Assembly (NCBI GenBank): GCA_004154925.1
Contig: QJNS01000064.1
Span: 190,987-254,986, forward strand
Direction: 5' to 3'
Origin: Monosporascus cannonballus
Taxonomy: Eukaryota > Ascomycota > Sordariomycetes > Xylariales
DNA: 64,000 nucleotides
The position numbers and the translations under genes are program-made. Shown one piece after another: positions 5,266 through 63,472 of this stretch. Positions within the stretch are counted from its first letter, which is position 1. Every line of letters begins with the position of its first letter. Under the pieces are notes generated by a model. The model ran no database searches and was not told the DNA's origin. It saw nothing but the letters and a program-made list of their open reading frames with translations.

Positions 5266-5905
5266 CCTAGTTAATAATTAACTAATCGGTAACCGGGATA
5301 TCGGGCCAATCGGCCGCAATATATACTAACGTAACAGCTATAACGGCAGCTTCTAATTGTTTTTATTCTTAACGTTTTTGCTTTTTTAGCTCGTCTAATA
5401 ATTAAAACCCCCGTTATACCATGGTATCGCTTTTCGAATAAATTAACGCCTTTTATTTACGCAAACAAATAAAACGAAAAAACACTTTATTTATCTTTTC
5501 TGAATATTTACGTTAAACCTCGAAATAAAGCCGTTAAAACTTTAATAATTATTCCTTAACAAACGTTTCCTTACGTTTTAGGCATTAATATTTACGACGA
5601 ATATTTTGAAAAAAAAACGGGTACGCCGGTGCTATCATAAAATCGATTTCGATTAACATATTTCTTATACCTTAAAACGTTTTCCATTATTTTATTACTT
5701 ATGTTTTTCGAGAATTAATAAGAATAAAGCATAATTTCGTAATTAAATCCGTTAAAGGCTTTTACGAGGTCAACATGACGAACGGTAAAAGAACGAAAAA
5801 CGCGACGAATTTTAAAAATATAAAAAACATAATCAAAAGCAAAAAAAGGGTTATTTACCGGACAAAAAAAAGAAAAAAAAAGAAATCTTGAGGGCAAGAT
5901 TTTGG
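5265..5905 (-). pseudogene. El-1 antisense ORF (pol-convergent), degraded
   Basis: This stretch occupies the slot between the end of pol and the 3' LTR, on the opposite strand to pol, as in El-2 and El-9 where the frame is clear. On the minus strand it starts just inside the polypurine tract (an ATG frame runs from 5897 to 5715) and heads towards pol. RIP has hit it hard and I cannot trace a cysteine motif. It is called by position and by the conserved layout of sister copies. The function is unknown. Confidence 0.5.
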
Positions 5906-5919: not shown

Positions 5920-6294
5920 TATTATAACCTAACAAATTCCGGCCTTAAAAAACGGTCAAATAGGGAAGATACGGGCTACTCTATAAGGTTACGTAACGGT
6001 GATTACTGCTAAGCCAGTAATTATAAATAATTATTAATAAACTCCAAAAATCATAATTACTACCGATTACGGAACTAGAAATAATTAAACCAAAAATATA
6101 TATATATATATGCTTATTATTTCCATAATTTAAATAATTTCAGTTTATAATATAAGATCGTTACCCAAGGCACCCTTGATATTACGAGCCGTAATACGTT
6201 ATTGTATTTATTGCTCAGATTTACACGATACTCCTACCACCATAAACCTGTCGACTTAAGGTTTAATAGTTGGTTAAACCGCCTAGCCGTCACA
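5920..6294 (+). repeat. El-1 3' LTR (family A)
   Basis: A 375-bp LTR. It starts TATTATAACC (TGTTATGACC with two G-to-A changes) and ends CCGTCACA. The last 200 bases or so (from TGCTTATTATTTCCATAAT to the end) match all family A LTRs. The first part, including an AAATTCCGGCC stretch and a short TA run near 6095-6111, is unique to this copy. Confidence 0.9.
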
Positions 6295-6553
6295 CAAATA
6301 AAAAATCGATAAAAACGGAAATCCCGTTTATCGAAAAATAACCGATTACAAATAATTAAACGATATCATAATTAAACACGGATATCCTCTAACCTTTATA
6401 AATACCTTAAAGGAAAATGTCAGCAAAGCTAAATAATTTAAAGTACTTACCTTTGGTAACAACTATTACCACATCCGAATAACTAAAGGAAAAAAATGGA
6501 AAACGGCATTTAGAATAATATATAAACTTTACGAATACAAAGTAATGCCGATA
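6295..6553 (+). pseudogene. pol: El-3 pol fragment: N-terminal reverse transcriptase
   Basis: Reads as the fingers/palm part of RT: NGNPVYRKITDYKQLND near 6315-6365, then GYPL..INTLKENVSKAKYF and KGKEWKTAFRIIYKLYEYKVMPI up to 6550. These are standard gypsy RT blocks. The fragment is bounded by the 3' LTR of El-1 on the left and by El-2 on the right. It continues in frame at 13158 with the LTNAPASFQ block. Confidence 0.88.
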
Positions 6554-6871
6554 TGTGACGGCTAGGCGGTTTAACCAATTATTAAACCTTAGTCGTACGG
6601 GTTTATGTTGGCAGAAGTATCGTGGGAATCTGAGCAATAGATATAATAATCGTGTTACGTTTCGTAATATTAAAGGTACTTTGAGTAACGATGTTGTATT
6701 GTAAGCTGAAGCTATCTGGACTATGGGAATAATAAGCGTATATATCCTTTTTCTGCTAGCTGGCTTACTACCAGTGAGTTGGTGATTTATTACGTAACCT
6801 GCCCCACCGTGTACTTATGGTTGGATCGCGAGGGACCGTTTTTAGAGACCGTGGTTCGTTAGGTTATGATA
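6554..6871 (-). repeat. El-2 3' LTR
   Basis: A 318-bp LTR. On the plus strand it begins TGTGACGGCTAGGCGG and ends GGTTATGATA. It holds a single unit of the 35-bp repeat (near 6757-6790, GGCTTACTACCAGTGAGTTGGTGAT). The pyrimidine tract at 6872-6887 just outside it is the polypurine tract read from the other strand. Confidence 0.93.
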
Positions 6872-6887
6872 CGATTTTCCCTTTCCG
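6872..6887 (-). other. El-2 polypurine tract
   Basis: The minus strand reads CGGAAAGGGAAAATCG immediately before the 3' LTR, matching the tract of El-1. This confirms the minus orientation. Confidence 0.7.
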
Positions 6888-6945: not shown

Positions 6946-7506
6946 ATGTCGTCTGGTGTATTTAAGCGTCGTTTTCGTAAATCCGAATAGCGATTTGTTT
7001 TGGTTAATTTAATTGAACTTAAAGTGTTAAACGCCATAGTTTGCTTTTTTTGTTCCGTTAGGCGGCTTAGTTGCCAAATGATGGACGAGGTTTTTCGTTG
7101 TAAAGAATGTGTTCGCCGGGGTCGTTCGTGTAATGAGATAGGAGTTCCTGTTTTTATGATTAATTGTTATATCGCAAAGTCGAAAAAATTAAAATAGGAA
7201 AAGTTAACGGCCAAGAAATTATTATCCGAAACTTTTGTGCGTTTTTTTCGCATACGTCGTTAACGTTAATACTACTAGTTATAAGGTGCGAAATTGGTAA
7301 ATCGTGCTTTTTAATCGATAAACGAATTTCCGGAACTTATGTTATAGAAGATAAAGTCTGTTATGGCCGTTCAGGCTGCTAGGGGTGTAGATGTTATTGA
7401 TTGGAGCGTCGTAGGCTTTTTGGATGATGTGGATTGGAGCGCGATTATTTCCGGTGGCTCCGTTGTTGTTGGTGAAAATTCTTTAATAGGTGCTGCGCGC
7501 CAATAA
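6946..7506 (+). pseudogene. El-2 antisense ORF: Zn2Cys6-like cluster plus coiled coil
   Basis: A 186-codon frame from ATG 6946 to TAA 7504-7506 runs opposite to gag-pol without any frameshift. It is interrupted only by TAA/TAG codons (6988, 7195, 7261, 7267, 7276, 7282, 7312, 7345), all explained by CAA/CAG-to-TAA/TAG changes. Residues 33-62 (7042-7131) carry six intact cysteines spaced CX2CX6CX8CX2CX6C and end CKECVRRGRSC, the spacing of the fungal Zn(II)2Cys6 DNA-binding cluster. A Lys/Arg/Gln/Leu-rich, coiled-coil-like segment follows (about residues 70-135). The tail has two Asp-Trp-Ser repeats (7399-7440) and ends AARQ. The ATG lies 75 bp inside the 3' LTR and the stop falls in the pol C-terminus. 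The coding pattern is seen; DNA binding is inferred. Confidence 0.8.
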
Positions 7507-10500
7507 GGTTTTTGGTAAGTTTTTAAGTGTTTTCGGAGTTCGGGTGTTTTTTTATTTGATTAGGTACTGGGTAAGTCCGTTTTGTTTTTGCATATCGAAT
7601 ATCTTTTCTATTTCGTACGTTTGTTCGTTTTTTATTTTTACGTCGTTTTATGCCGTATGTATTTTGATGATATCCGCTATTGATTCGAGTAAGGAAACGT
7701 AAAAAATTGGATAAAGTTTGATTTTTGGTAAAAGTTCTAATTAGTAATTGTTTTCTGAGATTTTTTTGGCGATTTTGTATAGACCGATATATTTAAAATC
7801 GAGTTTTTTGTTAGGTTTTTTTATTTAAATGTTTTTTATAATAAGGAAAATTATTTCCCTTTTTTCCAAAATTAGTTTTTTTAAACCTTTTAGTAATAAT
7901 ATTTATTTATTTAATTCTGTATAAATTCCAATGTTGTTTTTATTTTCTGGTATAATTATCGTAATTATTTTAACGTAAAAATTGTTTTGATATGAATTGG
8001 ACCGTTATCGTATATTTTTCTATAAATTTCTGAAATAAACTCAAATTTACGTTTGTAAATGTTATTTTAATATTTTAATAATAACTGATATTATAAGTTA
8101 GTTATGCAATTAGTAATTTTTTAATTCAATTATTTTATTCGTAATTGATATAATATCGTAATTGAAGTTCCAAAGTTTGGTTTATTCGTTTTATTTATTT
8201 ATCCGTTTAAGGTTTAAATGCGGTAAATAACTTGTAATTTAGGCCGATTTATATTATTAAGTTTTGTTAAAATTTATATACATATATCAATTTTTAGTTT
8301 AAAATAATTTATATAAGTAATCCGTATATGCTGAATATATGTTTAAGAAAATGTATATTATTTGTTCGGCGTTTGTATTTTCATAATATGGTAAAAAATA
8401 AGAAAACTTTATAAATCGGTCGACGATTACGAAAATGCTGTCGTAATATATTCCGGTAGCTGGATTTTCTGATATAGAAAGTTTGGTAATAAAGTCAAAT
8501 ATAACTAAATATTATGGTCGTTTTGCAATTAATAATGGCTGTAATTTTCCGTATAGCTTATGTCGTTAAAGCTTTACTTTGGCGCAAATATCGTATTATC
8601 GTATAACTTTTTATACCGTTGATTTTATTTTAAAAAAGCAATATATACGTTAAAACCGTTTTAAGGTTTTATAGATTTCTGGATATTCGTATAACTGATA
8701 TTTATGTATTTTTCCTATTAAACCTTTTTGGTATTTTTGTGGAATTTATATTTTATTCGTTTTTTGGATTTTTCAGAAATTATTATCATATTATTAAATT
8801 TTCTGGTATATGTGGAAAGGTATTACTCGAATTGTCGTAATGTATCGTAAGCGTAAATATCCTAGTATAATAATATCGAAAATTATATAACTAATTTCAA
8901 TTAATTTCTTTTTAAGGTTTAGTTATTTACTTAAGGTATTTTCTTTGTTATTTTCTAAATTTTTCTTATAGATAATAACAAAGGCGAAGTTCGCCAATTT
9001 TTTTACATATTTTAATTATCGTTCTGTAAATTCCTTAATCGTAGTAAATCGGGTAAATTTTATTAATCCGTATAAATTTTAATTTAATACAAATTTCCCT
9101 TGAGGAAATACCTCAATTTTTAAAATGCTATAATAATGGCCATAAATTCCTTACCTGGAATACCGTAATTAAGTTCGGCTTTTTTTAATTTATACGAAAG
9201 AAATACAATAAGGTATAATTTGTCTTAATTATTGCGTTATTTAATTATTGCGTTTAACATATAATACGAAATATCGGTGTTTAATTTAACGGTACAATTT
9301 AAATTGTATATAATTAATATTAATTTATTAATAGTTATATTCTTAATATCCTAAAATACTTTTTTCGTATCTAGCGTCTATGTAAACCTTTTTTCTTTTT
9401 TCGTAAAATTTGTTATAAGTATAATTATTTTATACAAGTTTTAAATAAACTTTCTGTAATAATTAGCGAATTTAAAAAATGCCTATATTTCATTAATTAT
9501 GGTTAAAGTTTATTATTTTATAATTACACCAATGTTTTAGGGGTTTATTTTAATATATTTTAAGGTAATAATATATTTTAGATATTTTATTTCTTGCTTT
9601 TGGAAATAGTTTTTTTATGTTAATAAATAACTTTACGTTTTATAAAACTTAAAAAACTCTATTAACGTATTTTACGTATGGTTTTCTTATTTTCGAAAAA
9701 ATAAAAATATTGTCGAAATAGCATACAACGAAAACTTCGAAATATTTTCGTAATATATAATTTATTATCCGTTAAAAAGTTATTAGTACGTTTGTAAATC
9801 TTATTAATATAGCTAAATACTTAAATAATCCGTATTTCGATATAAAGGTTATTTTTTATTTATATTTCTTTTTAATTTTAATAAGGTTATATCCATATTT
9901 AAGATCGAATATTATAAATTATTTGGCTTTATAAAATCGGTTTTTTATTTTTGTAATTAAGGGTAATAATATGTGATTTTTAACAGTAATATCATTTAAT
10001 TATCGATAATTAATTATAAATTGCAATTTTTCGTTTTTTAGTACGAAAAATATCGGCTATATTATTGGTAATTTCGAGGGTTAAATCCATTTTTTCTATA
10101 TCCAATTTTCTATGTATTTTTTGAAAATACGTAATTCATTTCTGTTAGGATTATAAATAGAGTAAAACTTTATAGAATACTTTTTCTTAAAAGGTATCTT
10201 ATAATTTTATTCGTTATATTTTAATAATTTCGTATCGAATTCCTTTTTTAAAAGCGGCTTGTATCTATTGTATTACGGTAATATATTAAATAAATCTTCT
10301 AACTCTTTGGGCTATTATGTGTGTTATTCCAAATTATTATTTAATTATTTTAATTTCGTTCGAATAATAATAATAATATGTTATTTTTTTAATGTACGTT
10401 TCTTTTCATATTTTATCCTTTTATATAAAAAACCTTCTGTTATATTCTTATACATATATTCGTTATTATTATCGATCGAATATTAAAATTTTAACTTTCT

Positions 10501-11350
10501 TTTTCGTTTATTAATAAGAAATAAAACGAATTTTATTTAATTAGTTTTACCGTTTATCAAAATTCCGTATTAACGTATCAATGGTAATCTTAAAATCATA
10601 TTGTAATTCCTAAATAAAATAATGTCGAAATTAATTATTTGGTATTGTTCTTTAATAAAAATCTTAATGTAATTAATTTTGCGTATAACTTTTCCGTTAT
10701 CGTAAACGAATTCTTAATTTTCGGTATTCGTTATTATATAAGGTTTTAATTTGTATTTTTATAATAATTTAAACTTATTAACCATATTTGGTAGAATATA
10801 ATATCCGCTTAAAGCTTTGTAATTTATTATTACGGTATACTAATACGTTCCGATTTGTATTTTTAACGTAATAAAGTTATTAATGTTTTTTATTATGACG
10901 TTTAAAGCCTTTTTCGGAAATCCTTTTTAATTTCTTTAAATTTCGTTATTTTTTAATTGTTTTATAAGTAATTCTTTTCTTTTAATTTTTATTCGAATTT
11001 GTCGAATTTTGTTTATATATTTTCGTTTAACGCTTTAAGTTACTATATTTATCGTTATTGCCGGCGTATTATTTTTTCGAATCGTATTAATTACTTTTGA
11101 TTTTTTTACAATATCTTTCTTAGCGAATAAATTGTTTTCGTATTATTGCAATTATAATTCCTTATACGTCGTCCTAATTATCGTGTTAAAAATTTCCTAT
11201 AAACTAATATATCTTTTTTAATAACTTTTTTTTCATAAACATCTGTAATAAATATTAATTAAAAATAAAGGTCCGTAATAATTTTCTAGTAATACTTTTT
11301 AACCGTACGCTAAATTAACTTTTTTTTCGGTTTAATAATTATACCATCGA
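7500..11350 (-). pseudogene. pol: El-2 pol, degraded
   Basis: On the minus strand this gives protease near 10650-10850, RT near 9600-10250, RNase H near 8900-9500, integrase near 8050-8700 and a chromodomain at about 7510-7640 (KQNGLTQYLIK, then a stop at the family's Trp). The RT active site is FDNIFIFS at about 9709-9717, so the second catalytic Asp is Asn. Stops are frequent. Subdomain limits are estimated by comparison with the sister copies. Confidence 0.85.
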
Positions 11351-12700
11351 TATTAATAAAAAGGGTTTTTCTTACGGATATTATTTTTTTCGAGTTACAT
11401 TTTTGTTTCGGCCAGCTATTCAATATTTTCTGGGGTTATGGTTCGAAAATGTCGATATTATTATTTATTATTTTTGTTATTTCCGATACGATTTAGAAAA
11501 TCGAATCCTTCGTAATATATGCCGGTAATCCTTCGTAAATATAATATTTTTATTTTTTATAATTAAGATATTTTCGTCGTTGATAATATATGGCGTACAT
11601 TTTGCTATATTAATTAGAGATTTCGAGGTAAATTTCTTTTGTTTAACCCTAATATTTACGTAATTATCCGTATAATATTTTTTGTTATATTCGTAATATT
11701 TATTAAAATAATTTCTTGGTTTTTTGTATTTTGCGTTAAATTCTTTTTCGTAATAATCCTTATCCGAATTTTTGTTATAGGCCTAATATATATTTGGTTT
11801 AAATTATTTTTAAATTATGTTTCCGGTATAAATATTGAGTTATTTTGTTATAACCTTTTAGGTTTTTTGTATTTATAAACTTTATATCTTTTTTTGCCAT
11901 AATTAAAGTATTTAATCTTGTTTTAATTTTGTTTATAAGTTACGCCGAGTTCCATAAATCCTGGCATTATTCCGTAAAAAATAAAAGGTACGTTTCGTTT
12001 TTTCCCTTAATTAAATTTGTTATATTCCGAACGTAAAGTTTATTATCCCTTTCTTTTAATCCTTTTTCAAACTGTTAATTATTAATCTTAATTACCTTTA
12101 TAATATACGGATTTAAGGTAATTAATCGTTTAATCCAAATAATTTTTTTTTATATTATGTTTTAACCTTTTATAAAATATATCGATAAAAGTATCGGTTT
12201 TTTCGTTTTTTAATTTTGTTTTGGCCATAAACCTTTTAAAGGTTATGGCGTATTTAAACGCAAATCCTTTTTATCGGAATTATAAAAATTGTTAAACCGG
12301 AAAATATTTTTTATCCAAATTATGAAAATTATCCCATATTTTATCCTCGAACTTAATATAAAATAAAAAATCTTATTAATAAAATCTTTTTTATTTAAAC
12401 TTTTTATTTTTAATAAAGTTTTTATAATAGGTTTAAATTAATTAATATTATTTCCCGTTAGGCATATTTTTATTCTTAGGACGTTAGCCGCCGGATTACT
12501 AAAATTTAAAAAGTAAAAATAAATTCGTACCTAAATTAAGAAAATTTGAAAGTTACATTTTCTGTTATAAGGTTCCCATTTCCTAAACTTTATACGGGCG
12601 AAAAAAGTTTGGGCAAGTAACATAACCCTAATTTGTCGGATTTTTCTTTTTAATTCTCAAATTCGAACCCAAAACTGCTAAATATAAGTTTTATCAATAT
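11350..12700 (-). pseudogene. gag: El-2 gag, degraded
   Basis: The minus strand reads as the same gag type as El-1. The zinc knuckle at 11869-11910 keeps its spacing, but all four ligands are gone (Cys, Cys, His and Cys all read Tyr), the pattern expected from G-to-A/C-to-T changes. The N-terminal region near 12450-12680 matches El-1 and El-6. Confidence 0.78.
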
Positions 12701-12770
12701 TAATTAATATTTTAACATTAATAAATATTACGTAAAGTTTAACAGTATTATTAAATAAAAATATATAACG

Positions 12771-13157
12771 AATAACAGCTAAGCGGTTTAATTAATTATT
12801 AAACCTTAGTCGTATAGATTTATATTAATAAAAATATCGTAAAAATCTAGGTAATAAATATAATAATCGTATTACGTTTCGTAATACTAAAGGTATTTTA
12901 AGTAACGATATTATATTACAAACTAAAGTTATCTGGATTATAAAAATAATAAACGTATATATCTTTTTCTATTAATTGGCTTATTACTAATAATTTGGCG
13001 ATCCGGCTTACTGGCTTACCACCAGTAAGTTGGCGATCCGGCTTACTGGCTTACCACCAGTGAATTGGTAATCCATCACGTAACCTGCCCCACTGTGCAC
13101 TTGTGGTTGGACCGCGAGGGACCTTTTCTGGAGACCGTGGCTCGTTGGGCCATGACA
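12771..13157 (-). repeat. El-2 5' LTR
   Basis: A 387-bp LTR. The plus strand ends GGGCCATGACA directly before the CGATA duplication. It contains three units of the 35-bp repeat (about 12985-13085; GGCTTACTGGCTTACCACC and related), against one unit in the 3' LTR. The plus-strand left half is heavily RIPed while the repeat half is GC-rich and nearly untouched. Confidence 0.9.
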
Positions 13158-14795
13158 CGATAAGACTTACTAATGCTCCCGCCAGTTTTCAAAGCCTGGT
13201 CATAACTATTCTCTGATAATTTCTAGACAAATTTGTATTTGTCCACCGCGACGACATCTTTATTTACTTTAAAACGTTGAAAAAGCATAAAAAATATCTG
13301 GTTTAAATACATAAAACTCTAAATAAAACGAATATTGGAATTAACAGAACCAAAAATATATAACATATACAAAAACTGAATTTTCTGAAATTCATTTGTA
13401 TTTCAGGCCAAATTCAAATTTAACGCTTTAAGTTAAAAGCAATCAAGGACTAACTTATCTTTAATAAGGCGAATATTATAAATATCCGACAAATCTTAAG
13501 ATGTACAACTTATATACGTACCCTAATTAAAGAATATAAAGACATAATTAAACTATTAACGAAACTTACTACTAAGGAATACGTTGGGAAAAATTCTAAC
13601 TCCTAAAGGAAGCCAAAAAAGCATTTCGAGAATTAAAGAAAACAATTACTAACGGATCTATCGATAAAATACCAAACCCAAAAAAAACGACTAAAAACCG
13701 ACGCCTTAAAATACGCACTGGGTGCAGTTTTAAAATAACAAGAAAATAATAACAAATAATACCTAATAACATATTACTCAAAAGAATTCCGAAATTCAAA
13801 ACTCAAATACCAGATTTTACGACAAAAAGCTATTAATAATTATTAACGTTTTTAAAAAAACAAGAATTTTTCCTTAATAAAAAAAAACTTTTCGATCTTT
13901 ACTTTAATTACAAAAACTTTACGCAATTCATAAAAGCTTAAAAATTAAATAAACGATATAAAAAATGGATAATTTTTCTATCGAGATTTAACTTTAAGAT
14001 ACACCATATTAAAGGAAAAAAAATATCCAGGTGGATATCTTTAATCGCAAAGGAGATTACGATCTCAAATTCCCCCAAAAAGGCATATAGATATTACAGT
14101 ACAATAAGGACGGTACCGTATAATTGTGTAAAATAGTAAAAAAACTAACTACCGAACTTTTGATACGGTTCCGGAATTCCTACGATATAAAGGAACGAAA
14201 AAAGGTCCAGCGACTAAAAGGGCAACCAAAAAATCAGCTATTGTACCATGACAAAATCTATGTTCCCAAAGATCAATAGAAACAATTTGTAAAAGAATTC
14301 CATAAAGATTTACTGCACGGATACCAAGGAATTTTTAAAACCATTAAACGATTACAAAAAAAATACGACTTTCCAGAATTACGCCGTATAATTAAAAAGG
14401 TAATTAAAAATTGCAACACTTGTAACAAAGCTAAAATAATACGCCATAAGCCTTACGGGCTATTATAATTTATTAATTTTCCTAATAAAGCATAAAATAT
14501 TATAACTCGGGATTTTATCATTAATTTGTCTTTATTTAAGGACCCAGTTATTAAATTCGAATACGACGGAATATAATCAATTATTAATAAACTTACCAAA
14601 TATAAGAATTTCCTACCTTTTAGAAGAAACGCAACGGCAAAACAATTAACTTACGCCTTTATCAAATACTATCTTAACAATCATGGGATACCAAAAAAAA
14701 TCATTTCCGACAAAAATACGTTTTTCTCTTCAAAATTTGGCACCAGTTTTTTTTTAAACAAATTGGTGCTAAGTTCAAATTCTTAACAGCGTATC
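13158..14795 (+). pseudogene. pol: El-3 pol fragment: RT palm, RNase H, integrase N-terminus and core
   Basis: Continues the RT from 6553 with LTNAPASFQSL, then a palm motif reading FVFVHRDDIFIY at 13235-13264 (catalytic DD at 13250-13255, where the family usually has YLDD). RNase H shows TDA.KYALGAVLK at 13697-13738. The integrase zinc finger is intact at 14301-14423: His 14301, His 14316, Cys 14412, Cys 14421 (HX4HX31CX2C). The core region follows, with Asp codons near 14512 and 14567. El-4 interrupts it at 14795. Several RIP stops are present, but it reads more cleanly than family A pol. Confidence 0.9.
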
Positions 14796-18900: not shown

Positions 18901-19150
18901 GTATCCGTTTTTTCCAATTACTCCGGGGGTTGCTAAAATAAAATTAAGGTATTTTCAAAATGATATCGTATTTAAAGATGTCAACGATATTCAACGAAAC
19001 GCGTTTTTGGTATCTTTGAATTTGTACAATAAGTTTTTTGTTTTTCGTAGGATTTGTCCATTTTCGTAGGATTTGTCCATTTTCGTAGATGAATAGGTTA
19101 TTATTTATCGTACGCAACTTCTAGAACTTTAACTTATATCTCTAAAAGAT
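15940..19150 (-). pseudogene. pol: El-4 pol (RT-RH-IN-chromodomain), degraded
   Basis: Minus-strand polyprotein. The RT block APASFQSL lies near 18240-18275 and LDDILIYS near 18185-18205; the Tyr before LDD is a stop. RNase H lies near 17640-17790, in register with TDA.KYALGAVL of El-3. The integrase zinc finger lies near 17040-17180. A clean 62-codon piece at 16171-15983 holds HPVYHVSLLKLIPENAPL and the chromodomain start KYKIEQILDSKIIKNKIQYL. Domain order matches El-3. Many RIP stops are present. Confidence 0.85.
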
Positions 19151-27700: not shown

Positions 27701-28690
27701 AGAAATATATTATGATAGCATTTTCGTAATTGTCGACCGATTTACGAAATCTCCTTGTTTCTTACTATATTATAAAAATATATACGCCGAGTAAATAGTA
27801 TACATTTTCTTGAAATATATTTTTAGCATATACGGATTACCAATAGAAATTATTTTAAATAAAATATTAATATTTATATCAAAATCTTGGCAAAGTTTAA
27901 CGGCCTAAATTAATTTAAACTATAAGTTATCCAGCATATTTAAAGCTTAGACGGACGGACCAACGGAACAAATAAATTAAACCTTAAAAATTTATCTACG
28001 ATATTACATTAATTATAAACAGAATAATTATTAATCGCATAATTAGCTTATAATATTAATTACTATGAAAATATTAAGATAATATTAATAAAGGCAAATT
28101 TAGGTTTTACTCCAGAAATTTACAGAAAAATATGCGACGATAATCCCATTAATATCAAAGTAACCCTTACGTCAAAACAATTACGATAATTATACCAGAA
28201 GATAAAAACAGAATTGGAATTCGTACAGAATTAGATAAGCAAATATTATAACCAAAAAAATTAAAAGAACTAATTTTCGAAAAGAGGAAGATAGTTTTCT
28301 TCGCCACTAAAAATATTTAAACAAAACGACCTAACAAAAAACTCGATTTCAAATATATCGGTCCATACAAAATCACTAAGAAAATCTCAAAAAATAACTA
28401 TTAATTGAAACTTTTACCAAAAGTTAAATACCATCCAATTTTTTATGTTTTTCTATTCGAATTAGCAATAAATATAATTAAAGTATGTACGGCACAAACC
28501 GATAAAAAGGTAAAAAACTAACAAATATACGAAATAGAGAAAATTTTGGACATACGAAAACAAAACGGACTTACCCAGTACCTAATTAAATAAAAAAAGC
28601 ACCCGGATTCCGAAAATACCTGAAAACCTGCTAAAAACCTTATTAACGCTTAACGCCTGTTAAAAAACTTTTATTAATAACGGCGGAACT
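24790..28690 (+). pseudogene. pol: El-5 pol, degraded
   Basis: Protease lies near 25480-25640, RT near 26060-26480 with VVYYFDNIFIF at 26431-26463 (second catalytic Asp changed to Asn, AAC at 26449-26451), RNase H near 26870-27240, integrase near 27560-28250 and the chromodomain near 28545-28640 (LDIRKQNGLTQYLIK, then a stop). Stops and small gaps run throughout. Confidence 0.83.
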
Positions 28691-29300
28691 ACCGGAGATA
28701 ATTACGTCCCAATCGACGTTTTCCAGCGGCCAGGTAACGCCAGGTAACTTAAAAAAAAGAGCCAAGGCGGCTAGGGAGGCCTCGGCGTTGGCCTGCTCCT
28801 AACGCTCCTGCCTTTCCAGCTTCTTTAGCGACTGTAATTCTTGTTGTACCATTTTAACTTCCTTCGAACGAAGGAACGCCTTTTGTTTTCGAAAACGAAT
28901 TAACCGCGTAATGGCCTCGTTCATTTTTTGCTGATAACGTTTTTGCAATTCTTAGAAACGCCTTTCCGTTAACATTTTTTCGCGTTTTAAACGTTAATTT
29001 TCGGCACGAATGTTTTTTACGGAGGATAAGAGAATATTATTATCACAAGGATAGCCACGTTTAACGTACGCCTTACGTTTGGAAACGTTCTTTATTATTT
29101 CGCATTTTCAGCCTTTAAAAAAGCATAATAAATACGGTATAACTTCAAAACTAGAATCGTTAAAAATAAGAAACAGATTTTGACATCGCGCAATGGACGA
29201 AAAAACCTAACGACGACTTTTAATGATACGGGCTGATATTTTAAGGAAAAAAGGCTTACTAGAAGAAAAAGAAAATCTTAAAGGCAAAATTTAAGGAAAG
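28690..29300 (-). pseudogene. El-5 antisense ORF, degraded
   Basis: Opposite to pol, between the chromodomain and the 3' LTR. Minus-strand pieces show SVSYF and VHCAMSKS near the start and a Lys/Glu-rich middle (SAKNERGHYAVNSFSKTK near 28880-28980), but no continuous frame. It is called from its conserved position; most cysteine ligands cannot be assigned. Confidence 0.5.
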
Positions 29301-29453: not shown

Positions 29454-29858
29454 TGTGACAAGCTATAAGGTTTAACCAACTATTAAACCTTAAGTCGACG
29501 GGTTTATGTTAGCAGAAATATCATGGAAATCAAAGTAATAGATATAGTAACGTATTAGGTCTCTTAATACCGGAAATGCCTTATTACAAACGATTAGTAT
29601 TGATAAATATTGCAAGCTGAAGCTATCTAAACTATGGAATTAATGAGCGTATATATATTTGGACGTAGTTCCCCTTAGTTCTAGGACTCGCTGGACTCGC
29701 CAGCGATCCTGGCGATCCAAGATTCGCTGAGCTTGCCAGCGATCCTGGCGATCCAAAACTCGCTGAGCTCGCCAGCGATCCTGGCGATCACGTAATTTGC
29801 TAAGCTTCCCACTTCTGTATAACCGTTTCTGGTTGTGCCAAATAATTAGGTCATAATA
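29454..29858 (-). repeat. El-6 3' LTR with 36-bp tandem repeat
   Basis: A 405-bp LTR beginning TGTGACAAGCTATAAGG on the plus strand and ending GGTCATAATA. At about 29684-29790 it has three units of a 36-bp repeat (ACTCGCTGAGCTCGCCAGCG...). Each unit has a perfect stem CGCCAG-CGATC-CTGGCG. The 92-codon open frame here is only the translation of this repeat. Confidence 0.93.
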
Positions 29859-29984
29859 CGATCCTTTTTTTTCCAGGATTTTCGTCCCGAAAATTAACTT
29901 GTAAATATTTATTTCCAAAAATATTTTTCCGCATTCGAAAATATGTTAAACTTTTTTCCAAGGTAAAAATTGTATAACGCGACT

Positions 29985-30513
29985 TATTTTTGGCCGTTAT
30001 TTTATCCAGTCCTTACTTAATGGCGCCCTGTTTTTATTACGAACGCCGGAAATTTAAATATTAATTGTCCGAAAAAGACTTTTCTCGTTATTTTTTGTAT
30101 GTTTGTTATTAATAGGCTAATTGTGACGTTTACGGTTTTAATTCGGAGCAGTTGCAAAAAATTATTACTTAATATCGTAAATTCGAGGAAGAGCTAAAAG
30201 CCGCCATAGAGGTTAAGAAGTTTGCCAAAGGCTATACTTATCGTATTTAGAAACAAAAAAAAAGTGGTACGACAAAATAATAAAAACCGTATCTCGTGGT
30301 ATCGATAATTTGGAGAAATTGGAGAGGTTGGAGCGTTAAGAAAAACAGGCCGAATTGGAAGCCGCCAGGGTTACGTCGGCAGAGATTACGCTTTCTTTTA
30401 ACTGGTCCAACTTTAAGTCTATGGATTGGTCGTTTATTAATTAGGGGACTTTTAACCTTGCCGATTTCGGCGTTGTTGGTAAAAGTTCTTTAACAAATGC
30501 TGGGCGCCAATAA
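29985..30513 (+). pseudogene. El-6 antisense ORF with short Cys motif and coiled coil
   Basis: Runs against pol. Near 30088-30260 it reads YVCY, two stops (former Gln), ANCDVYGFNSEQLQKII and then YRKFEEELKAAIEVKKFAKGYTYRI: a short Cys motif followed by a charged, coiled-coil-like segment. The C-terminal frame MDWSFIN...VVGKSSLTNAGRQ stops at TAA 30511-30513, the same Gly-Arg-Gln-stop end as El-7. At least one frame change separates the N- and C-terminal parts. It lacks the second half of the six-Cys array seen in El-2. Confidence 0.62.
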
Positions 30514-35795: not shown

Positions 35796-36200
35796 TATAA
35801 CGAATTATAAGGTTTAACTAATTATTAAACCTTAAATCGACGGGTTTATGTTAATAGGAATATCGTAAAAATCTAAGCAATAAATCCAGTAACATATTAA
35901 GTCTCTTAATACCGGAAATACCTTATTACAAACGATTAATATTAATAAATATTCCAAACAGAAGTTATCTAAATTATGGAATTAATAAACGTATATATAT
36001 TTGGACGTAATTCCCCTTAATCCTAGGATTCGCTGAACTCGCCAGCGATCCTGGCGATCCAAAACTTGCTGAGCTCGCTAGCGATCCTGGCGATCCAAAA
36101 CTCGCTGAGCTCGCCAGCGATCCTGGCGATCACGTGACTCGCTGAGCTCCCCACTTCTGTATGACCGTTTCTGGTTGTGCCAAGCAGTTGGGTCATAACA
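35796..36200 (-). repeat. El-6 5' LTR with 36-bp tandem repeat
   Basis: A 405-bp LTR, TATAACGAATTATAAGG...GGTCATAACA. It has three units of the 36-bp repeat at about 36026-36132, the same number as the partner LTR. The repeat half is nearly free of RIP. Confidence 0.94.
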
Positions 36201-41039: not shown

Positions 41040-41649
41040 TTTTTTATATTTATTTTGTTCGGTTGTATTGAAAAATCTAGGTTTTGGAAGTATATTAATG
41101 CTTTTGTTTTTTTACAATAAATTAACCGCCTTAGTTGTATTATATTTTCAAATATTTCCTGTTTTTGTTGCAAATCCGAGAACAACATTTGCAAAACTTA
41201 TGCTAACTTAGGGAAGTATATATTTTGTATTGTTTACGGAGGTCCTTGTGATTATTTTGATTTTTCCGAATTTGAATACCAGAAATTAGTTACCGAAAAG
41301 GACCGTTTGGAATTAAAGGCGCGTCTTGCCAAAAAGGAACTTTTGAAAGCTTAATAATATTTTATCGAGTTATTTGGTCGTTTACGCCGTTTGCGAAAAT
41401 AGAAGAAATTTTTTTCGTTAACTTAAGATTAAAATATTTTACTGCAGTATTTAAGGTACGGAGGCGATAAAAGAATTCGAACGTTTGGGAAAAAAACAGA
41501 AATAGTTAAAGGCCGCAGTTATAGTTGTTATGTTAACGCAAGCTGCGGCCGATTGGCTCGATATCCCGGCTATTAATTGGTTAACCGTTAACTGGGACGC
41601 GTCCGTTATTATTGGTAAAAGTTTTTTAATAGGTACTGGACGCCAATAA
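41040..41649 (+). pseudogene. El-7 antisense ORF with short Cys motif and coiled coil
   Basis: Runs against pol between the LTR and the chromodomain. It reads YCIVYGGPCDYFDFSEFEYQKLVTEKDRLELKARLAKKELLKA from about 41227 to 41355, then FGRLRRLRK: a compact Cys motif followed by a long charged helix-like stretch. The C-terminus WLTVNWDASVIIGKSFLIGTGRQ ends at TAA 41647-41649. In-frame TAA/TAG codons at Gln-like positions break it. Confidence 0.65.
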
Positions 41650-50892: not shown

Positions 50893-51332
50893 TATAACGG
50901 CTAGGCGAGTTAACCAACTATTAAACCTTAGTCGTACGGGTTTATGTTGGCAGGAGTGTCGTAGGAATCTAAGCAATGGATATAGTAACGTATTACGTTT
51001 CGTAATACCAAAGGCGCAAAAACATATTGCAAACGATTGGTATTAATAAGTATTACAAGCTGGTATTATTTAGATTATGGAAATAATAAGTATATATATA
51101 GTTTTTTGCTGTTAGCTGGATCATTACCAGTAAATTAATAATCCGGCTTACTGGCTTACCACCAATAAGTTAGTAATCCGGCTTACTGGTTTATTACTAG
51201 TAAGTTGGTAATCCGGCTTACTGGCTTACCACCAGTAAATTAGTAATCCATCACGTAACCTGCCTTATTACGTACTTATAGTTGGGTTATGTTAAACCGT
51301 TTCTGGGGGCCGTAACGCGTTAAGCCATAATA
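50893..51332 (-). repeat. El-9 3' LTR, four 35-bp units
   Basis: A 440-bp LTR, TATAACGGCTAGGCGAG...GCCATAATA. Four units of the 35-bp repeat at about 51120-51250, each built around CTTACTGG...CCAGTAAG. The minus-strand purine tract lies just outside at 51333-51349. Confidence 0.92.
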
Positions 51333-51409
51333 CGATTTCCCTTTTCCAAAAATCTTGCCCTTAAGATTTTCTTTTTTCTTTTTCGATAAGTTTTTTGCAT
51401 TCCTTTAAT

Positions 51410-51982
51410 ATGTTTTCCGGTATATCTAAACGTTATTCTTATAAATCCAAATAATAACTTACCTTAGTTAATTTAATTAAATTCGAAAGTTTTAATGTAA
51501 TATCCTATTTTTTTTGTTTTGCCCGGCAGCTTAATTACCAAATAATAAACGGGGTTTTTCGTTATAAGGAATATGTTCGTCGGGGTCGTTTTTGTAACGG
51601 AACAAAAATCCCTGTTTCCATTGTTAATCGTCATATCGCGGAATTAAAAAGATTAAAAAAGGAAAAGCTGGCGGCCGAAAAATCTTTATCCGAAACTTTT
51701 GCGCGTTTTTTTTGTATACGTCGTTAACGTTAATATTATCAATCCTAAGATACGAAATTTGTTAATCGTACACTTTAATCCTTAGATGATTTTAATAATT
51801 TTGCGTAATTGGAATCAAAGTTTGTAATCGAGGTATAAGCCTTAAATAAGGTAAACGTTATTAATTAGAATGCGGTAGATCGGGGGTTTTTTTCTTTAAA
51901 TCTTATAGATTAAAATGCTATTATTTCGGGTAACTCCGTCGTTATTAATAAATGTTTTTTAACAGGCGCTGAGCGCCAATGA
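51410..51982 (+). pseudogene. El-9 antisense ORF: Zn2Cys6-like spacing, Cys mostly lost
   Basis: A frame of 190 codons without frameshift from ATG 51410 to TGA 51980-51982, opposite to pol and 78 bp inside the 3' LTR. The six-position array at 51506-51595 has exactly the El-2 spacing (X2, X6, X8, X2, X6). Positions 2 and 6 are Cys; the others read TAT/TAC (Tyr). YVRRGRFC ends it, matching CVRRGRSC in El-2. KRLKKEKLAAEKSLSETFAR follows, then Gln-to-stop changes. The end reads GAERQ. Keeping the frame while codons decay shows that this was once a real coding gene. Confidence 0.78.
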
Positions 51983-57277: not shown

Positions 57278-57682
57278 TATAACGATTAAATAAATTAACC
57301 AATTATTAAACCTTAGTTGTACGGGTTTCTATTAACAGGAATATCGTAGGAATCTAAGCAATAAATACAATAACGTATTACGTCTTATAATATTAAAAGT
57401 GCAAAAACGTATTGCAAACTATTAATATTAATAAGTATTATAAGTTAATATTATTTAAATTATGGAAATAATAAGCATATATATAGTTTTTTCCTATTAA
57501 TTAAATTATTATTAATAAGTTAATGATCCGGCTTACTGTCTTACCACTAATAAGTTGGTGATCCGGCTTACTGGCTCACCACCAGTAAGTTGGTGATCCA
57601 TCACGTGACCTGCCCCACCACGCACTTATGGTTGGGTTATGTCAGACCGTTTCTGGGGACCGTGGCGCGTTGGGCCATGACA
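57278..57682 (-). repeat. El-9 5' LTR, three 35-bp units
   Basis: A 405-bp LTR, TATAACGATTAAATAAATT...GGGCCATGACA. Three 35-bp units at about 57497-57600. The right half is GC-rich; the left half is RIPed. Confidence 0.92.
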
Positions 57683-62880: not shown

Positions 62881-63472
62881 ACGCGTTCCAATTAATAGTT
62901 AACCAGTTAGTAGCCGGGATGTCGGGCTAATCGGCCGCGACCTATGCTAACGTAATAACCATAACGGCGGCCTTTAACTATTCTTATTTTTTTCGAGACG
63001 TTTAAATTCCTCCATTATTTTCGTACTCTGAATACCGTGGCGAAATATCTCGATATTACGGCGACGAAGTAGCCGTCTTTATTTTTGCAAACGGTCCAGT
63101 TTGTTAATAACCGTTCGTAACGTTTTATAAATCTATTTCTTTTTACGTTCCAAACGATTTTTTATTAAGAAGTTTTTGATATTTAACCTTTGAAGAATTA
63201 AAAATATTACAAGGACCGCTACAGTAAATATAACGCGTATATTTTAAAGAACTCCGAGCTATTTTGTACGTAGCATTTTTTTCTTATAACGAAAATAAAA
63301 AAGTATTATAAAATTAAGGCGTTTAATACATTTTTTAAAAAAAATTTAAAACGTTAATGCGTTTACGAAAACGAAATTTTTTAATACGGCCCGATATAAT
63401 GAGTATAAAAAAAGGAAAGTTACTTATTAAAATTAACAAACAAATAATTTAATCTTTAAAAATTAAAATCTT
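62880..63472 (-). pseudogene. El-8 antisense ORF, degraded
   Basis: Slot between chromodomain and polypurine tract, opposite to pol. The minus strand reads a Lys/Arg/Leu-rich, helix-like middle (KNFLIKNRLERKKK near 63140-63175; LRRRNIEIFRHGIQSTKIME near 63015-63075) and an Asp-Ile-Pro...NW...ASVVI-type tail near 62890-62950. No full frame survives, and the cysteine motif cannot be placed. Confidence 0.55.

Follow-up and report, generated by a model that had tools for sequence, protein, structure and literature searches.

One lineage of fungal Ty3 elements with a chromodomain carries an accessory gene that is read against gag-pol, in the interval from pol to the 3' long terminal repeat (LTR). 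We describe it in a 64,000-nucleotide stretch of Monosporascus cannonballus DNA (the window, G000:C575:190987-254986), which is part of an 88.8 Mb assembly, is AT-rich and is full of stop-ridden elements. The antisense open reading frame (aORF) of the element under study (the target) and the other features of the window are presented in Table 1. With a probability of roughly 0.58, this frame encodes a small dimeric regulator of the zinc-cluster type, with which the element controls its own LTR. The original prediction had placed an antisense frame of 186 codons without frameshift between pol and the 3' LTR; translation gives 187 codons, again without frameshift, and also bears out the six intact cysteines and their spacing of 2-6-8-2-6. 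A small correction concerns the position: the last 40-90 bases of the frame fall within a block that aligns with the pol ends of other elements (block starts at 7421-7465).

The aORF is a protein gene kept by selection and not a chance frame, because it has an intact homologue and because the transversions among its copies are biased towards the third codon position. A search of 5.8 billion proteins, using the frame with X at the stops, retrieved P0001, an intact protein of 193 residues (E 9.7e-20 over 94%). P0001 as query led to 35 further proteins, and an alignment of those homologues led to 130 proteins, of which 120 were listed; 124 homologous proteins were collected in total. All named source organisms are fungi; the four sources checked (Thyridium, Verticillium, Staphylotrichum and Pyricularia) are Sordariomycetes, and Botrytis is absent among the organisms named. 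The expectation that similar small proteins sit unnamed in fungal databases was thus well founded. Scans with the homologue alignment gave six pattern matches in viral contigs and 16 in prokaryote contigs, and no relatives in either.

Repeat-induced point mutation (RIP) does not make transversions. Between the window copy and 30 genome copies of its family (family a), 245, 182 and 468 transversions are found at codon positions 1, 2 and 3, respectively. Across all copy pairs the numbers are 3396, 2722 and 6452, compared with 2129, 2192 and 1981 in the 3' flank. Columns with at least two transversions number 25, 15 and 38 (of 187 for each codon position; p 0.003), and the excess is weaker for columns with at least one (69, 50 and 75; p 0.06). 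The codons of the cysteine cluster differ in this respect, as their changes fall most often on the first position and not on the third (67, 19 and 23). A reading in which the antisense RNA matters, through double-stranded RNA feedback, and the protein frame is secondary is very improbable: protein-free antisense regulation has been discussed for other elements (PMC7264820), but the codon-position bias, together with cysteine columns conserved at 90% or more among homologues 22-70% identical to P0001, points to selection at the protein level.

Concerning the rest of the genome, P0001 matched at least 150 places, all at E<=1.6e-7 (150 scored of 996 candidates). Up to 6 kb 3' of the aORF, on the strand opposite to it, an H2C2 integrase match is found at 12 and a reverse transcriptase (RT) match at 16 of the 150 scored places. 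At least 21 distinct aORF places have a pol domain antisense to them at a near-fixed distance, with gaps of 1118-1301 (one of 2287) and 2150-2355; 21 is a lower bound, since the pol matches were taken from 150 of 1310 and 150 of 2353 candidates. For RT, 144 of the 150 listed matches were used (153 in all); the six left out are long, similar to long interspersed nuclear elements or stopped by TGA, and none of them is near an aORF place. Three matches show another arrangement. At a well-preserved element end, L061 (G000:C132:110600-114200), the ends of the aORF and of the pol frame share 140 nt in tail-to-tail orientation. From one stop to the next, the antisense frame of L061 stays open through 220 codons, with Tyr at the first two cysteines and Ile at the expected start codon, a stop-free RT match lies nearby, and the chromodomain is matched. 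In the window, at least a fragment of an aORF is present at each of the seven gag-pol bodies. The presence of homologues in many fungi, the 150 or more scored places in several divergent families, and the antisense position beside pol in at least 21 copies and at all seven window bodies make it extremely improbable that the frame is open by accident or is a piece of a host zinc-cluster gene that was picked up accidentally, even though the Zn_clus similarity and the intron that seems to follow the cluster in some homologues would agree with such an origin. Intact copies beside pol had also been expected in other fungi: open-frame homologues do exist there, and the position next to pol was seen only inside this genome.

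The damage to the copies was read as RIP, because 3295 transitions stand against 895 transversions between the 30 family-a copies and the window copy. The eight internal stops of the window copy are four TAG and four TAA, and the 31 family-a copies contain 285 in-frame stops (196 TAA, 84 TAG and 5 TGA). At most of the columns concerned, other copies read Gln, Arg or Trp. The exceptions are columns 55, 62, 84, 107, 127 and 129, each with a single stop beside other residues; column 106 is a stop in 30 of the 31 copies, with Lys in the remaining one, and column 123 is a stop in all 31. The claim that only Gln-to-stop damage had occurred therefore holds almost fully for the window copy; in other copies, stops also fall on Trp and Arg columns. 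Among the 31 copies compared, only the window copy has all six cysteines intact. The others mostly have Tyr at the cysteine positions (for example 26/31 at C52 and 27/31 at C62), as expected from C-to-T damage of TGY codons, and a few other residues are found at C33 and C36. Open homologues with Tyr at one or more cluster cysteines also exist (P0024 from Thermothelomyces, P0006 and P0014), which is what RIP would do.

Some homologues appear to contain an intron just after the cluster, based on a donor-like pattern in 8 of the 124. Insertions or early ends at this one point are seen in P0018, P0020, P0021, P0023, P0029-P0033, P0075, P0083, P0085, P0098 and P0100, as would be expected from read-through of an unspliced intron; P0083 is 98% identical to P0037 over the aligned part and reads into the apparent intron. 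Being antisense to the genomic RNA, such an intron would not be removed and would survive retrotransposition. The tail of P0017 (Corynascus) was compared with the antisense pol end in L005 (E 0.14) and L014 (E 0.51); these matches are too weak and were not used.

Based on its cysteines, the window copy agrees with the C-x2-C-x6-C-x5-12-C-x2-C-x6-8-C pattern of PF00172. A loose six-cysteine pattern is found in 105 of the 124 homologues, with the exact 6-8-6 spacing in 62, and all six cysteine columns are at least 90% conserved in the 67 homologues that were aligned. When Pfam was searched at E up to 10, the window frame (E 0.063) and P0001 (E 0.0031) matched no family other than Zn_clus (PF00172), which is also the commonest match among the 67 homologues (22 at E<=1, best E 0.001). 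The predicted Zn_clus similarity is suggestive: it singles out one family, and the scores of the window copy with stops as Gln (13.8 bits) and of P0001 (18 bits) lie below the Pfam gathering cut-off of 21 bits. Open pieces of L061 and L062 gave no Zn_clus match. The loop proline between the cluster halves is absent in the window copy and in 80 of 105 clusters (present in 25). The first half of Zn2Cys6 clusters usually has a CxxCRxRKxKC run; it is seen in host clusters, whereas the first half of the aORF cluster lacks it. On visual inspection each half looks like the second half of canonical clusters, and the idea of swapped halves was dropped.

The predicted coiled-coil-like segment corresponds to a long helix in the AlphaFold2 model of P0001 (67 sequences; pLDDT 86.9). 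The model has a helix at residues 13-28, two short helices in the cluster, a single helix at 67-152 and then a short helix at the tail. [DNE]W is found in the C-terminal part of 54 of the 97 homologues that have the cluster and at least 160 residues. Put3, Pho7, Hap1 and Ppr1 come up in sequence and fold searches, always weakly and beside unrelated helical chains; fold searches with the zinc-free models gave no significant match, and an 88-residue model gave no Foldseek match, which says nothing on the fold. Because of the Zn_clus scores below the cut-off and the weak sequence and fold matches, we use the term Zn2Cys6-like for the protein and leave it outside PF00172.

Our reading of the mechanism is as follows. 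The aORF would be transcribed out of U3, since U3 is the nearest room for a promoter. Its protein would dimerise through the long helix, bind DNA like a small regulator of the Gal4/Put3 type at a target in U3 (the tandem array, where there is one) and tune transcription of its own LTR. Between activation and repression we guess the former, since the DW tail is acidic-aromatic.

Tandem arrays with a unit of 35 or 36 bp are found mostly 145-290 bp upstream of the aORF start. They are present in 35 of 76 loci in the interval -330 to -90, compared with 0 or 1 of 74-76 loci in nine intervals further up- or downstream. By family, the arrays are seen in 31 of 44 loci of family a plus a truncated family-a copy, and in three of five of family d; none was found in this interval in 18 b, five c, two e and one f loci, so that two of six families have them. 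At a unit threshold chosen by us and without a control, 117 units were counted in 43 of the 44 family-a loci, and all 74 neighbouring spacings are exactly 35. Unit sequences vary between element types. In two of the four types the palindromes in the units are exceptional, at 10-78 and 23-25 of 1000 shuffles, and transversions in family-a units are fewest in the palindrome arms (1.3%, compared with 2.8% in the spacer and 5.1% elsewhere).

Looking at the elements of the window (the target, e1 and e3 to e7), the seven gag-pol bodies differ by 2.8-6.2% transversions and carry four aORF families: a (target and e5), b (e1 and e4), d (e3) and e (e6 and e7). The bodies of the target and e5, which share a family, differ by 4.8% transversions, and those of the target and e3, which do not, by 4.2%. 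Across 76 distinct loci, with the truncated copy L074 counted as family a, the nearest neighbour by the U3 zone -320 to -90 shares the aORF family in 72 of 74 cases, compared with 51 of 71 by the pol end and 48 of 73 by pol 1000-1600; shuffled labels never gave more than 44, 43 and 44, respectively. When the pol side was taken as a whole, agreement was seen in 32 of 73, with a maximum of 41 among the shuffles. The aORF family thus goes with the inner U3 zone better than with pol, and we read the pattern as exchange of cassettes on a common pol. Selection for a matched protein and site would keep both together, and elements would exchange the cassette on a common gag-pol. A tentative extension, which we hold to be less probable than its opposite, is that such swappable cassettes, each an antisense-encoded dimeric zinc-cluster regulator with its own U3 operator, which in at least two families would be the 35/36-bp array, recombine on one gag-pol and form orthogonal transcriptional circuits for co-resident elements.

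Several observations weigh against the regulator-and-site reading. The palindromes of the other two unit types are not exceptional (225 and 278 of 1000 shuffles), and the eight bases after the family-a palindrome are conserved as strongly as its arms. Because palindromes are exceptional in only two of four types and these following bases are equally conserved, the array is a candidate operator and no more. Also, pol carries some signal of the aORF family. Two loci show a mismatch between aORF family and U3 zone: L032, and L041 (G000:C334:300090-300539), where a family-a aORF stands beside a U3 array whose 36-bp unit resembles the one in family d (compare L064, L068 and L072), probably as a natural recombinant between gene and array.

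The same data bear on two other functions. A Zn2Cys6-like nuclear protein might help the element to integrate or to enter the nucleus, by anchoring the integration complex to chromatin, rather than regulate the LTR; Chromo domain and integrase are encoded next to the aORF in relatives, and the antisense protein of the plant element Grande was located to the nucleus, according to PMC7264820. This is unlikely, as the elements already possess a chromodomain and the aORF family tracks the U3 zone (72/74) more than pol (51/71). Alternatively, the protein might act against other elements or host silencing, for example as a repressor of competitors with the same U3, and the families would then diversify like incompatibility groups. 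Four families on one gag-pol type within 64 kb would suit this, as would the fact that aORFs of different families seldom align as DNA although their pol does: such pairs are linked in 82 of 3372 cases by the aORF, 1134 of 3372 by the U3 zone -320 to -90, 2322 of 3372 by U3 -420 to -20 and 2546 of 3310 by the pol end. A diversifying pair of activator and site explains the same pattern and the repressor is without direct evidence, which makes this function rather improbable too. We continue to prefer a regulator of the element's own LTR.

Antisense genes at this place are already known in plants and in Boty of Botrytis. In Boty (Botrytis cinerea), the gene brtn runs antisense in the interval from pol to the 3' LTR (Zhao et al. 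2011 Virology 417:248, as cited in PMC7264820), and the gag-pol has gag, RT, IN and CHROMO domains (PMC4227169). So far as these descriptions go, it is like the aORF in place, orientation and type of element; the portions of the cited descriptions at hand mention neither a zinc cluster nor a U3 array for brtn. The plant genes termed aORF-3R (gene23 of Grande, RIRE2, Retand with the TRP28 domain PF04195, and PvRetro13 with SMC) share place, orientation and a suspected nuclear or DNA-binding function, but belong to other protein families; Retand is a non-chromovirus, and the available sections report no zinc cluster (PMC7264820, PMC11963269). With HBZ of human T-cell leukaemia virus type 1 there is only an analogy: both are antisense products of retroelements, with another DNA-binding class and another host. 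HBZ is a bZIP regulator of the 5' LTR. It is described as a nuclear antisense protein (PMC11963269) with an antisense promoter in the 3' LTR (PMC7264820).

Compared with the Zn2Cys6 regulators Put3, Gal4, Ppr1, Hap1 and Pho7, the aORF protein has six cysteines in fitting spacing followed by a coiled-coil-like helix, but it scores below the curated cut-off, mostly lacks the loop proline, lacks the first-half run and, with about 200 residues, has no large regulatory domain. A literature search found no zinc-cluster antisense gene in a fungal LTR element, which is no proof, as Zhao et al. 2011 was outside its coverage. As far as this search shows, what is new is the identification of a zinc cluster, how widely it occurs, and that it is linked to the U3 zone and its arrays.

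The antisense genes beside the 3' LTR in plants, Botrytis and retroviruses are mostly without a known domain or target. The aORF offers a DNA-binding-like cluster and a candidate dimerising helix, and many of its natural homologues have open frames. Two families also have a candidate DNA target, at a distance of mostly 145-290 bp, so that the function of such genes becomes testable. Concerning annotation, small database proteins named 'hypothetical' or 'Zn(2)-C6' may partly be encoded by retroelements rather than act as regulators of the host. If true, cassettes of a matched gene and site on one gag-pol would give retroelements a new route of diversification.

Table 1. Features of the target element and of the other elements of the window (positions within the window).
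Feature	Position	Strand	Remarks
aORF of the target, family a	6946..7506	+	187 codons, 8 internal stops, no frameshift
Zn2Cys6-like six-cysteine cluster	7042..7131	+	C33, C36, C43, C52, C55, C62; spacing 2-6-8-2-6
Predicted long helix / coiled-coil segment	7141..7389	+	By correspondence with P0001 residues 67-152, AlphaFold2
C-terminal tail	7390..7503	+	Two DW motifs (DVIDWSVVG, DDVDWSAI), from translation
3' LTR of the target	6507..6875 (ends approximate)	-	High-coordinate end is U3; aORF start 70-75 bp from it
Left-over unit of 35-bp array, U3 of 3' LTR	6757..6785		Position read by eye
gag-pol body of the target	7459..12700 (ends approximate)	-	DNA similarity to six other window bodies; RIPed chromovirus-type Ty3 element
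5' LTR of the target	12716..13161 (ends approximate)	-	Pairs with 6507-6875
35-bp array, U3 of 5' LTR	12977..13068		2.6 copies; ACTGG-N7-CCAGT twice
aORF remains of e1	5381..5807	-	Family b; antisense to the plus-strand pol of e1
aORF of e4	28646..29242	-	Family b
36-bp array of another unit, LTR of e3	29686..29789		Partner array 36030-36153
aORF of e3	29930..30504	+	Family d; no blastp match to the target
aORF fragment of e6	41067..41351	+	Family e
35-bp array beside the aORF of e5	51126..51249		Partner array 57513-57599 in the other LTR
aORF of e5	51404..51976	+	Family a; 50% identical to the target
aORF fragment of e7	62992..63132	-	Family e; E 3.2e-13 to L070, only 0.005 to homologues of other fungi

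The target was filed as a chromovirus by DNA similarity: RT, integrase and chromodomain are found in its relatives and not in the target itself, and the eight open pieces of its own pol strand gave no match to a retroelement Pfam domain. An H2C2 integrase domain lies beside the close family-a copy C617:156921. In better-preserved relatives pol terminates in a chromodomain; Chromo is matched in L061 (E 4.4e-19) and in L063 (E 2.1e-14), the latter also with rve (E 3.9e-08). The LTRs of e3 (29464-29856 and 35806-36198) are 88% identical, and their 36-bp array unit holds TCGCCAG-N5-CTGGCGA. Beside the 3' LTR of the target, an inverted repeat (6199-6294 and 6554-6649, 85%) apparently consists of nested LTR fragments. 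A 19-bp tandem repeat is present at 19042-19088 (2.5 copies, 100% matches). Three RT matches in the genome are stopped by TGA only (G000:C93:130095-130868, C93:102484-102930 and C392:28112-28546) and perhaps sit on mitochondrial contigs, where TGA encodes Trp.
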